A stretch of 44,598 nt of DNA from Patescibacteria group bacterium (GTDB lineage Bacteria > Patescibacteriota > Kazan-3B-28 > UBA10110): positions 1-44,598 of the forward strand of contig JAFGPN010000006.1 in the NCBI GenBank assembly GCA_016936175.1, written 5' to 3'. The notes beneath the pieces are model-generated. The model was not told the DNA's origin. It saw only the letters and a program-made list of their open reading frames with translations, and made no database searches. Numbering within the stretch: the first letter of the stretch is position 1; the number at the start of each line of letters is the position of its first letter. This document shows positions 13,166 through 21,752 of the stretch, piece after piece. Position numbers and translations under genes: made by a program.

Positions 13166-13999
13166 ATGTCTTCGGAAGCTATCCAAGGATATTTTGTTGA
13201 CGGCTATGGTTTGTTGTTAGAGCACGCCCAGCTTTCGATAGCTAATCTGGCATCGGTTTTTAATCTGGTTACGATTCTGGACATCTTGTTGGTTTTGGGC
13301 ATAGTCAGTTGGCTGTGGCTTAAGATTCGCCACACCGCTTTAGCTCGAGGGCTCCCCAATTTTATTGTCCTGTTACTTTTATTTGTAATTAGCAAGATGC
13401 TGGGTCTAGTGGCTATCTCGATATTATCATTGGCATTGATGGTAGTTTTGTTGGTGGCAGCCATCTTGATCTATAGTTCTGATCTACAAAAAATTGTTGA
13501 AGGGGCATTTATCAGCCAGCGAGCTGTTGGTCGCATAAAAACCTTAAGTGATGCCGATGCCAACGAGTTTATTCGTGAGCTATCGGATACGGTGGGGGCT
13601 TTGGCTAAGCTTCAGATTCCCTCGTTGTTGGTGGTGCGGGTGACTAAACCGGTCAGCCGCTTGATTGAACAAGGGATGCCCTTGCAGGCACCGTTTAATC
13701 GGGATTTTGTGATCGACACTTTTTCGCATCGCTCTAAGTTGTCTGCTGGGGCGATGATAGTTGATCGGGGGTTAATTGTGGCGGCAGGTTCCACACTAAC
13801 GGTTACCTCACCCAAGCGGTTTCCCTTTAGCTTAGACAACCCTGCCATTCGCCAAACGGCTACCCATTGGGAGGCATTGGTAATTATTACCAGTAAGGGC
13901 ACGGATACTGTCTCGCTTCTTCACAAAAATAATACCTACGCCAAACTGGCAACTGGGAGTTTAGAGCGTGTGCTCAAAAGTGTCTTGCTGGCCAAGTAA
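13166..13999 (+). CDS. CdaA-like membrane protein with degenerate diadenylate cyclase domain
   Basis: A 277-residue protein with CdaA architecture: three N-terminal hydrophobic segments (about 36-55, 62-80, 82-105) and then a DAC-type domain (about 110-260). CdaA makes c-di-AMP and is usually followed by YbbR/CdaR, as it is here after an inserted GIY-YIG gene. The catalytic motifs are not intact. The DGA motif reads SAGA at 193-196, with Ala194 in place of the essential Asp. The region that should hold RHR reads IRQTATHW (228-235) and seems shortened. The alignable neighbours (AMIVDRGLIVAAGSTL; ALVIITSKGTDTVSLL) make the assignment firm. Probably an inactive or altered-function relative, perhaps a structural or sensing subunit. 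Confidence 0.75.
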   Translation: MSSEAIQGYFVDGYGLLLEHAQLSIANLASVFNLVTILDILLVLGIVSWLWLKIRHTALARGLPNFIVLLLLFVISKMLGLVAISILSLALMVVLLVAAILIYSSDLQKIVEGAFISQRAVGRIKTLSDADANEFIRELSDTVGALAKLQIPSLLVVRVTKPVSRLIEQGMPLQAPFNRDFVIDTFSHRSKLSAGAMIVDRGLIVAAGSTLTVTSPKRFPFSLDNPAIRQTATHWEALVIITSKGTDTVSLLHKNNTYAKLATGSLERVLKSVLLAK

Positions 14000-14014
14000 C
14001 ATTGAAGAGGGTTT

Positions 14015-14294
14015 ACCCCGTTAGAGTTGTTGGGAATGATATATACATATGTTATCCGAAGCGCCAAAGATGGCAGACTATATACTGGCTCAACCAATAA
14101 CCTACGGGAACGACTGAGCCAACATAAGTCTGGGCTTGTAAGCTTAACTAAAAATCGCGGCCCGCTTACTTTGATTTACTATGAAGCCTGTACAAACGAC
14201 CATGATGCACGAATTAGGGAGAAATATCTTAAAACTGGCATGGGTAAACGTTATATCCGAAATCGGCTCAGTCGTTTCCTAACTCTAACGGGGT
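14015..14294 (+). mobile_element. Inverted-repeat-bounded GIY-YIG unit 1
   Basis: ACCCCGTTAGAGTT at 14015-14028 is matched by its exact reverse complement AACTCTAACGGGGT at 14281-14294. Between them lies one gene, a GIY-YIG nuclease. The unit of 280 bases fills the gap between the cdaA-like gene and ybbR, normally adjacent genes. The right repeat encodes the last residues of the nuclease and contains the GTG start of ybbR. No target duplication is evident. Confidence 0.55.
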
Positions 14295-14296
14295 GA
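14036..14296 (+). CDS. Solitary GIY-YIG endonuclease-domain protein (unit 1)
   Basis: An 86-residue single-domain protein starting MIYTYVIRSAKDGRLYTGSTNNLRERLSQHKSG. The two tyrosines with the intervening strand, the Arg of LRERL and the Glu of REKYLKTGMGKRYIRNRL match the catalytic pattern of the stand-alone GIY-YIG family (COG2827/UPF0213, related to the UvrC nuclease domain). TTG codons at 14027 and 14030 are in frame, but the ATG at 14036 gives the canonical start. Its stop overlaps the ybbR start (GTGA). It is bounded by perfect 14-base inverted repeats. It may be the gene that mobilises the unit, but that is inference. Confidence 0.85.
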   Translation: MIYTYVIRSAKDGRLYTGSTNNLRERLSQHKSGLVSLTKNRGPLTLIYYEACTNDHDARIREKYLKTGMGKRYIRNRLSRFLTLTG

Positions 14297-15489
14297 AACT
14301 AAGTTGGCAGAAACAATTCGGCTATCTGATCTTTGTGGCTATCCTATTGTGGTTAGCGGCTTTTGGCATTAGCTATCAATCTTTTAATATAGAACTTCAA
14401 CCTACGGTAACCAATCTGGTTAGTGGGCTGGCTTTGGCGGACAATCCCGAGCCTATTACGGCAGTCATCAGGGCTCGTGTCGGTGTGGCTTATCGTTTAA
14501 AGTCTAGCGGAGCCGTAACCGCCGAATTTGATCTAAGCACCGCTTCAATCGAGGGGAACTATCAGGTAACGCCAGATATAGTCGTAAACCTTAAAGACGC
14601 CTGGCTAATTAGTGCCCAGCCAGAGAAGGTTGAGGTTAAATTAGTGCCGGCGGTAACTCGGACCATTAGTTTGGTGGCCGAACCAGTTGGTTTTCCGGCA
14701 ACCGGTTTTTCTTTAGGAGAGCTCACCGTTACTCCCTCCACTGTCGATATTACAGGGCCGGCCAGCGTGGTTGATGTTATTAGCGAAGCCAGGGTGCCGG
14801 TAAATGTTAAACGAAGAAACAGCAATTTTACCGCTTTTGGCCGGCCACAAGTCAGTGATGTAGATGGTCATCCGGTTGTTAATGTTACTTTTTCTCCCAA
14901 CCAAGTTAGTGTGGCGGTTAACATCAAAATTGGTGATAGTTTTAAAACTATTGGTTTAGTGCCAACCTTCACTGGTGAATTAGCGCCGGGTTACTGGGTG
15001 TCTTACGTCGAATTTGAGCCCCCTACTTTAACCTTGAGGGGTAGTGCCGAAAAGTTATCTGCTATCGATAGCCTTCCAACCACGGCAATCAAGTTGGCGA
15101 ATAGATCGGCTAATTTTACCGATAAGGTGTCTGCCGAACTACCAGCTGGGGTAGTGCTGGTCTCTCCCAATTTAGTTAACGTTAAAATTAAAGTGGCAAT
15201 GTTAGCTAACAATCGCACCCTGGTTTTAATCCCTAGCTATGCCAATATCACCGAAGGATTAAGTGTCACCTCGGTTACTCCGCCGACCGTTCTGGTGGTT
15301 CTTTCGGGCGCGGCCGATAGACTTTCGGGGCTTTCGCGGGCTAACGTCTCTTTGGCGCTGGACTTGCGTGGTCGCCTAAGTGGTTCTAATATGGTTGATC
15401 TGACCCAAGAGATGTTTGAAGTGCCTGCGGATGTTGAGGTAATCAGCTTTGAACCTGCTACTCTCGAGGTTAGTCTAACCAAATCTTAG
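14293..15489 (+). CDS. YbbR/CdaR-like extracytoplasmic repeat protein
   Basis: A 398-residue protein with one N-terminal transmembrane anchor (about 9-28) and a long extracytoplasmic part of four YbbR-type beta repeats. The recurring cues are VEVKLVPAVTRTISLVAEPVG ... LTVTPSTVDITGPASVVDVI, then similar units near 225-260 and 305-340 (PPTLTLRGSAEKLSAI; PPTVLVVLSGAADRLSGL). In other bacteria YbbR (CdaR) binds and modulates CdaA. Its place after the CdaA-like gene supports pairing with it. It begins with GTG at 14293, overlapping the stop of the inserted GIY-YIG gene. The usual third gene, glmM, is not next. Confidence 0.88.
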   Translation: MKLSWQKQFGYLIFVAILLWLAAFGISYQSFNIELQPTVTNLVSGLALADNPEPITAVIRARVGVAYRLKSSGAVTAEFDLSTASIEGNYQVTPDIVVNLKDAWLISAQPEKVEVKLVPAVTRTISLVAEPVGFPATGFSLGELTVTPSTVDITGPASVVDVISEARVPVNVKRRNSNFTAFGRPQVSDVDGHPVVNVTFSPNQVSVAVNIKIGDSFKTIGLVPTFTGELAPGYWVSYVEFEPPTLTLRGSAEKLSAIDSLPTTAIKLANRSANFTDKVSAELPAGVVLVSPNLVNVKIKVAMLANNRTLVLIPSYANITEGLSVTSVTPPTVLVVLSGAADRLSGLSRANVSLALDLRGRLSGSNMVDLTQEMFEVPADVEVISFEPATLEVSLTKS

Positions 15490-21400: not shown

Positions 21401-21752
21401 CGTCATTCCCGCGCAGGCGGGAATCCAGAAAAAATGAGTTCCTACGTTTATATTTTGGCCAGTGCTAAAAACGGCACCTTATATACCGGGGTAACCGCTG
21501 ACCTAATTAAAAGGATGTATGAACACAAAAACAAATTTGTTCCTGGGTTTGCCCAAAAATACTCGGTAGGTAAGTTGGTCTATTACGAAACATTTAACAA
21601 TATTAAAAACGCCATTGTGAGAGAGAAACATATTAAAAAGTGGAATCGAGAGTGGAAGATAAAACTTATTGAACAAAATAATCCTCAATGGAAAGACTTA
21701 TATCAAGAAATTTTAGTTTAATGTCTGGATTCCCGCCTGCGCGGGAATGACG
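21401..21752 (+). mobile_element. Inverted-repeat-bounded GIY-YIG unit 2
   Basis: A 29-base sequence at 21401-21429 (CGTCATTCCCGC to ATCCAGA) is repeated as its perfect reverse complement at 21724-21752. Each arm is itself a hairpin (ATTCCCGC/GCGGGAAT). The single gene between starts four bases after the left arm and ends two bases before the right arm. The unit lies 15 bases after pheS and ends four bases before pheT. A related element without the gene is at 36321-36402. This is strong structural evidence of a compact mobile unit. Confidence 0.65.
21434..21721 (+). CDS. Solitary GIY-YIG endonuclease-domain protein (unit 2)
   Basis: A 95-residue single-domain protein: MSSYVYILASAKNGTLYTGVTADLIKRMYEHKNK, then KLVYYETFNNIKNAIVREKHIKKWNREWKIKLIEQNNPQWKDLY. 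It belongs to the COG2827-type GIY-YIG family with all expected residues (the tyrosine pair, Arg of IKRM, Glu of REKHIKKW). It differs clearly from unit 1 in the REKHIKKWNREWK segment, so the two are separate lineages and not recent duplicates. No transposase is nearby. Confidence 0.9.
   Translation: MSSYVYILASAKNGTLYTGVTADLIKRMYEHKNKFVPGFAQKYSVGKLVYYETFNNIKNAIVREKHIKKWNREWKIKLIEQNNPQWKDLYQEILV

Follow-up and report, generated by a model that had tools for sequence, protein, structure and literature searches.

A GIY-YIG unit between cdaA and ybbR

The window, that is, the whole 44,598-nucleotide stretch of DNA analysed here, comes from a Patescibacteria group bacterium and carries a 278-bp insert between cdaA and ybbR. 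The insert is bounded by terminal inverted repeats (TIRs), and its sole ORF encodes an 86-aa protein with a GIY-YIG nuclease domain (Pfam, E 4e-17). The features are listed below, together with a GIY-YIG unit of another lineage that served as a comparison.

13166..13999, + strand: cdaA, diadenylate cyclase (DAC domain; Pfam DAC, E 1e-9), the upstream flanking gene
14012..14015, no strand: left flanking tetranucleotide TTTA, at the duplication position and unequal to the right side (flank comparison)
14016..14293, + strand: whole element, 278 bp, CCCC...GGGG (140+ related copies compared; 4-bp duplications lie outside the ends)
14016..14028, + strand: left TIR, CCCCGTTAGAGTT (repeat comparison, shuffles)
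14036..14296, + strand: GIY-YIG nuclease, lineage A, 86 aa, ATG start (Pfam GIY-YIG, 62.7 bits)
14281..14293, - strand: right TIR, reading AACTCTAACGGGG on the + strand; holds the nuclease C-terminal ..LTG and the first base of the ybbR start codon
14293..15489, + strand: ybbR, GTG start formed at the element/flank junction (Pfam YbbR, E 1.5e-27)
14294..14297, no strand: right flanking tetranucleotide TGAA, remnant of the A/TGAA start codon of ybbR (slash, insertion point)
21401..21752, + strand: comparison unit, GIY-YIG lineage B (ORF from 21434) between perfect 29-bp arms CGTCATTCCCGCGCAGGCGGGAATCCAGA

An earlier note on this DNA had described a GIY-YIG nuclease between perfect 14-base arms, and this description was borne out. 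The arms ACCCCGTTAGAGTT (14015-14028) and AACTCTAACGGGGT (14281-14294) matched perfectly over 14 bp, and 16/17 positions matched when they were extended to 14012-14028/14281-14297. When the window was shuffled 100 times with dinucleotides preserved, inverted pairs of 14 bp at a spacing of 150-350 bp occurred at a mean of 0.04; in the real window there were only these arms and the 29-bp arms of the comparison unit (21401-21752). Since related copies end in CCCC...GGGG, the outer A and T of the 14-bp arms belong to the flank. The nuclease start was placed at the ATG at 14036, which is conserved among relatives and gives 86 aa. The right arm encodes the nuclease C-terminus, as the note had stated. 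The last residues are LTG, and the stop codon TGA (14294-14296) comes from the right flank and overlaps the ybbR GTG. The note had also placed this GTG on the right arm, which holds for the last element base, G14293, but not for the TG, which is flank-derived, so that the start codon straddles the element end. The GTG start of ybbR was identical in the sister species G001, and the overlap may couple translation of the nuclease and ybbR.

Relatives, non-coding copies and target duplications

A profile built from six lineage-A nucleases was searched against named genomes, and the best 80 loci were taken. Paired matching arms surrounded the nuclease in 77 of these 80, in hosts that included many Patescibacteria groups, Planctomycetota, Omnitrophota, Desulfobacterota (Desulfobacteraceae), Elusimicrobiota (Endomicrobia), WOR-3 and one archaeon (a Woesearchaeon). 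Some of these host labels come from short contigs and could reflect binning errors, but one Phycisphaerales contig extends over 278 kb. The similar arms around 77/80 relatives' nucleases exclude the possibility that the 14-bp match is ordinary ybbR 5' sequence paired by chance. Together with the separate lineage B, which has palindromes of its own, they uphold the earlier argument for a general element type and not a single accident.

The arms also varied together with the protein. Agreement between the two arms was 95% within one copy compared with 85% between different copies, the terminal (first/last) base was concordant in 73/75 copies, and arm distance correlated with protein distance (Mantel r 0.40, reached in 0/5000 permutations). 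The co-occurrence of each nuclease subfamily with its own arms, proposed earlier as a check, was thus found both here and in lineage B. By codon comparison the lineage-A nuclease is under purifying selection, with a median dN/dS of 0.11, and residues Y5, Y16, G18, R26, H30 and E62 were almost invariant in 104 relatives. Kazan bacterium RIFCSPLOWO2_01_FULL_48_13 and the sister genome G001 encode identical nucleases, and the window is therefore probably from a Kazan-group bacterium. The window's own genome (G000, 670 kb) has twelve stand-alone GIY-YIG genes and one within a uvrC-like ORF; a lineage-A pseudogene is also present (L012 1463-1700; G000 C12:34341), its frame interrupted by a TAA and its left arm decayed (TCCCATTAGA).

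Dozens of non-coding copies of 30-130 bp were bounded by the same TIRs. Being short, non-coding, dispersed and framed by TIRs and target site duplications, they correspond to miniature elements of the MITE type. The own genome (670 kb, 18 contigs) contained 34 CCCCGTTAGA sites versus 2 for reversed controls, and nearly all were unit ends, mostly in convergent pairs 106-119 bp apart with arms of 13-14 bp, some units having one decayed end. Among 380 genomes of the phylum, 18 had arms ~110 bp apart, one of them with as many as 32 copies, and 6 had arms ~278 bp apart; reversed controls gave no hit in either class. A strong lineage-A nuclease was present in 10/18 MITE-bearing genomes versus 30/362 others (Fisher 1.3e-6, from a hand count that ignores kinship); the MITE-bearing genome G014, which is 87% complete, gave no match to the lineage-A nuclease profile. 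MITE interiors were very diverse, with no plain derivation from the nuclease copy. One MITE lies inside an apparent tRNA gene, where GGGTAGCTCAGTGGTAGAGCAGATGGATTCA is directly followed by the element (L201 1011-1124).

MITEs with their arms folded better than shuffles, and paired arms can fold, as would be expected if the arms were a hairpin with a regulatory role for the host, such as a terminator or attenuator, preserved next to a GIY-YIG gene of housekeeping function. However, interiors without arms folded no better than shuffles, which also disposes of a structured RNA inside the MITEs, and no Rfam RNA family overlapped the elements except the tRNA genes inside arms. Given in addition the exact 4-bp duplications and empty sites described below and the unrelated gene contexts, we find the hairpin explanation hardly credible. 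A hammerhead ribozyme, considered for some MITEs with CTGATGAG...GAAACGAC, was rejected, as an Rfam search at E<=1 over 20 loci returned only tRNAs and weak unrelated matches.

We next scored direct duplications on the bases outside CCCC...GGGG. Exact 4-bp duplications flanked 31/80 nuclease-bearing copies (9.8 expected), 29/48 MITEs of 80-150 bp (3.1 expected) and 8/11 palindromes of 18-79 bp (1.8 expected); none of 20,000 permutations gave counts as high, and there were almost no duplications of 5 or 6 bp. The form TNNA accounted for 58/72 duplications, where the background frequency is 7.8%. Flanks were unequal, often TTYA/TRAA, in about 60% of the copies with a nuclease, and the window copy is one of these, since TTTA/TGAA is no clean target duplication. 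A longer TIR or a shifted duplication behind the TTYA/TRAA flanks was sought at offsets 1-5, and nothing was found. Judged from sequence, it is close to certain that a family of elements with TIRs and 4-bp duplications exists, and the 278-bp insert is apparently a member of a widespread and so far undescribed family of very small transposon-like elements.

Empty cdaA-ybbR sites, which the earlier note had advised looking for, were present in relatives. In G003 (same family, other genus) the two genes overlap as ATGA with no insert, and the junction was likewise tight in G002 (another genus of the same family) and in five genomes of the order. The history of the insertion is nevertheless not clean, because the sister species G001 holds a decayed MITE of ~120 bp with the same ends at this site. 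We also compared the flanks of seven other insertions between the own genome and G001, and two insertions (L018, L039) were common to both. Upstream of alaS, TCAG and TGGA were duplicated around G001 inserts, and the own genome has each of them as a single-copy, empty site. The insertion at TGGA interrupts the ATG of alaS, and a G contributed by the element restores a start codon as GTG, as with ybbR. This G001 locus (L236) holds four insertions with at least two TIR types within ~600 bp, and the one with ends CCCCGTAGTAGAAACTGGC has the TCAG duplication.

At three places, namely L030/L244, L025/L234 and cdaA-ybbR in the own genome and G001, different elements occupy the same insertion site in the two sister species, and the different units that some sites carry inside the same duplication suggest replacement or hot spots. 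Such sites speak for a homing-type invasion, in which MITEs came first and the nuclease would cut MITE or empty sites and spread by gene conversion into positions already marked. The many nuclease copies that lack a matching duplication, and the GIY-YIG fold, a classic among homing enzymes, point the same way. On the other hand, 31/80 nuclease copies have their own 4-bp duplication, at unrelated sites and in unrelated phyla, and the targets of homing enzymes are uninterrupted sites, not the mobile DNA itself (PMC1564403). We judge homing-type invasion to be improbable.

Insertions often fell on A/TGAA starts or ATGA stop/start junctions, where the last element base rebuilds the start codon. 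In T-type copies, which end in A, the junction read ATG in 32/38, and this ATG opened an ORF of >=60 aa in 26/38, compared with 28% of random ATGs. In several copies the stop codon of the upstream gene was supplied by the left TGAA, and the nuclease ORF itself ends in an ATGA overlap. The duplication thereby tends to preserve both neighbouring genes.

GIY-YIG lineages with and without arms

In a tree of the GIY-YIG proteins, lineage B (window ORF from 21434) stood apart from lineage A with 100/98 support. Its 29-bp arms begin with CGTCATTCCCGCG, and GTCAT-type palindromes were present on both sides in 12/17 members of the lineage B clade sampled here. A third GIY-YIG set in the tree had no arms, and several of its members adjoin tRNA genes. 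The arms are therefore a property of certain GIY-YIG lineages and not of all. The arm-less GIY-YIG genes L003, L267, L268 and L276 end directly at tRNA genes, and in L003 a piece resembling the 5' half of a tRNA is repeated upstream of the GIY-YIG gene, which suggests tRNA-targeted insertion.

The sister species G001 has a second nuclease subfamily, which forms a sister clade (L255, L256) and has imperfect arms, GTAGAGAA on the left and GTAGAAGA on the right (in fuller form, CCCCGTAGAGAA and CCCCGTAGAAGA). Three G001 MITEs of 65-70 bp have exactly this left/right difference, and an exact-pattern search returned 0 in the other 144 genomes. The shared asymmetry is the strongest hint in the sequences that the nuclease units and the MITEs moved as one kind of element.

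This recurrence bears on whether the GIY-YIG gene is only a passenger, that is, cargo trapped between the TIRs of a TIR/MITE family moved by an unlinked transposase. Whole tRNA genes do occur between the same TIRs (L027 1501-1630, L073 1501-1618, L087 1501-1606), and TIRs with a 4-bp duplication are typical of conventional insertion sequences. However, the nuclease was the only recurrent ORF: of nine loci in the phylum with a size of 260-285 bp, six contained it and the remaining three each consisted of two adjacent MITEs. At the loci examined we found no other recurrent gene or transposase between these arms, and arms spaced 346-1500 bp apart enclosed no further conserved element. Moreover, both arms were kept in 77/80 relatives, the arms diverge together with the nuclease, and the arm asymmetry of the second subfamily recurs in the MITEs of its own genome. 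With these points set against it, the passenger explanation keeps a small though appreciable probability. A larger element with a classical transposase was rejected: the sole wide convergent arm pair in the own genome (G000 C15:62249-66362) encloses housekeeping genes, and among ~140 only one pair of arms within 1500 bp of each other departed from the standard spacings. Phage vectors were also considered and dismissed; IMG/VR gave three pattern matches, which are probably due to chance because none contains a GIY-YIG ORF.

The nuclease as a candidate mobilising enzyme

The GIY-YIG nuclease is, in our assessment, probably the mobilising enzyme of the element; this reading, the passenger and the homing invader overlap, and the likelihoods given to the three should be read accordingly. 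The unit would consist of two TIRs, (C/T/G)CCCGTTAGA plus a few bases, around one gene for the 86-aa SLX1/UPF0213-like nuclease. The enzyme may recognise the TIR ends of its own copy in cis and those of non-coding MITE copies in trans, free the element or make a copy of it, and cut TNNA targets with a stagger of 4 bases, after which host repair would leave the 4-bp duplication. Copies would persist best at A/TGAA starts and ATGA overlaps, since there the upstream stop codon survives in the duplicated TGAA and the last element base (A/G) plus TG restores ATG or GTG; the nuclease ORF itself may keep the operon translated. Known GIY-YIG enzymes cut DNA, and we know of none that joins DNA, so that help from the host or an unseen partner would be needed. 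The unequal flanks of the window copy and of ~60% of nuclease copies count against the model, as simple transposition with a 4-bp duplication leaves them unexplained.

The element resembles insertion sequences and MITEs in its matching TIRs, fixed-length target duplication (4 bp at family level, absent in the window copy), dispersed copies at unrelated sites, non-coding derivatives with the same ends, and empty sites. It differs in its total size of 278 bp and in its sole protein, an 86-aa GIY-YIG nuclease; a DDE, HUH, serine or tyrosine transposase was sought in the element, and the only ORF is GIY-YIG. The element is shorter than any insertion sequence known to us, and the GIY-YIG fold is not known to drive TIR transposons in prokaryotes. 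The kind of element (TIR, duplication, MITEs) is thus already known, and what is new is the enzyme and the size. Penelope-like retroelements are also mobile elements with a GIY-YIG nuclease, but they are eukaryotic and have a reverse transcriptase, which is lacking here. SLX1 acts in cellular repair, and UPF0213 proteins, which are likewise cellular, are uncharacterised; we know of bounding TIRs in neither. These are the closest solved relatives by profile (PDB 1zg2, E 4.6e-9; 1ywl, 1.9e-4; SLX1 7wme, 0.0066; in round figures 5e-9 to 0.007) and have the same small single GIY-YIG domain, a kinship that would fit recognition of branched or hairpin DNA made by the TIRs.

REPIN/RAYT systems are similar in having a small nuclease-type gene within inverted repeats and paired non-coding units of ~110 bp elsewhere in the genome. 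However, RAYTs are HUH tyrosine transposases and their REPs are GTAG-tagged (PMC3116915, PMC2817692, PMC3733652), whereas Pfam found only GIY-YIG and no HUH domain in our element, the consensus end CCCCGTTAGA has no GTAG tag, and there is a 4-bp duplication. Free-standing and intron GIY-YIG homing endonucleases (I-TevI type, PMC1564403) are likewise selfish genes with this catalytic domain, whose key residues are conserved here. They differ from the element in that it has no intron or added DNA-binding domain in its 86 aa, has TIRs and target duplications, and occupies many unrelated sites, with no restriction to homologous alleles. Our searches of the openly accessible journal literature brought up no publication that connects GIY-YIG with bacterial MITEs, REPs or TIR elements.

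On balance, we lean slightly towards a broader reading, in which GIY-YIG nucleases form a further class of transposase. In Patescibacteria and several further phyla, the 86-aa enzyme would on its own mobilise TIR elements of 278 bp and would act in trans on MITEs of 30-130 bp, leaving TNNA duplications of 4 bp. Separate lineages would have their own arms, one being paired with CGTC/GTCAT palindromes that have no known dedicated transposase. CGTC REPs "apparently lack a dedicated transposase" (PMC3733652), and the lineage B nuclease is a candidate partner for them. Should the nuclease indeed move the element, it would represent a transposase of a new kind, and the element would rank among the smallest mobile elements known. 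Its TGAA duplication at ATGA junctions, by keeping the upstream stop and the downstream start, would let a selfish element enter operons almost silently. Movement by the nuclease would also explain one class of repeats dispersed in the genome-reduced Patescibacteria, and the question of how palindromic repeats such as CGTC REPs are mobilised would have a concrete answer.
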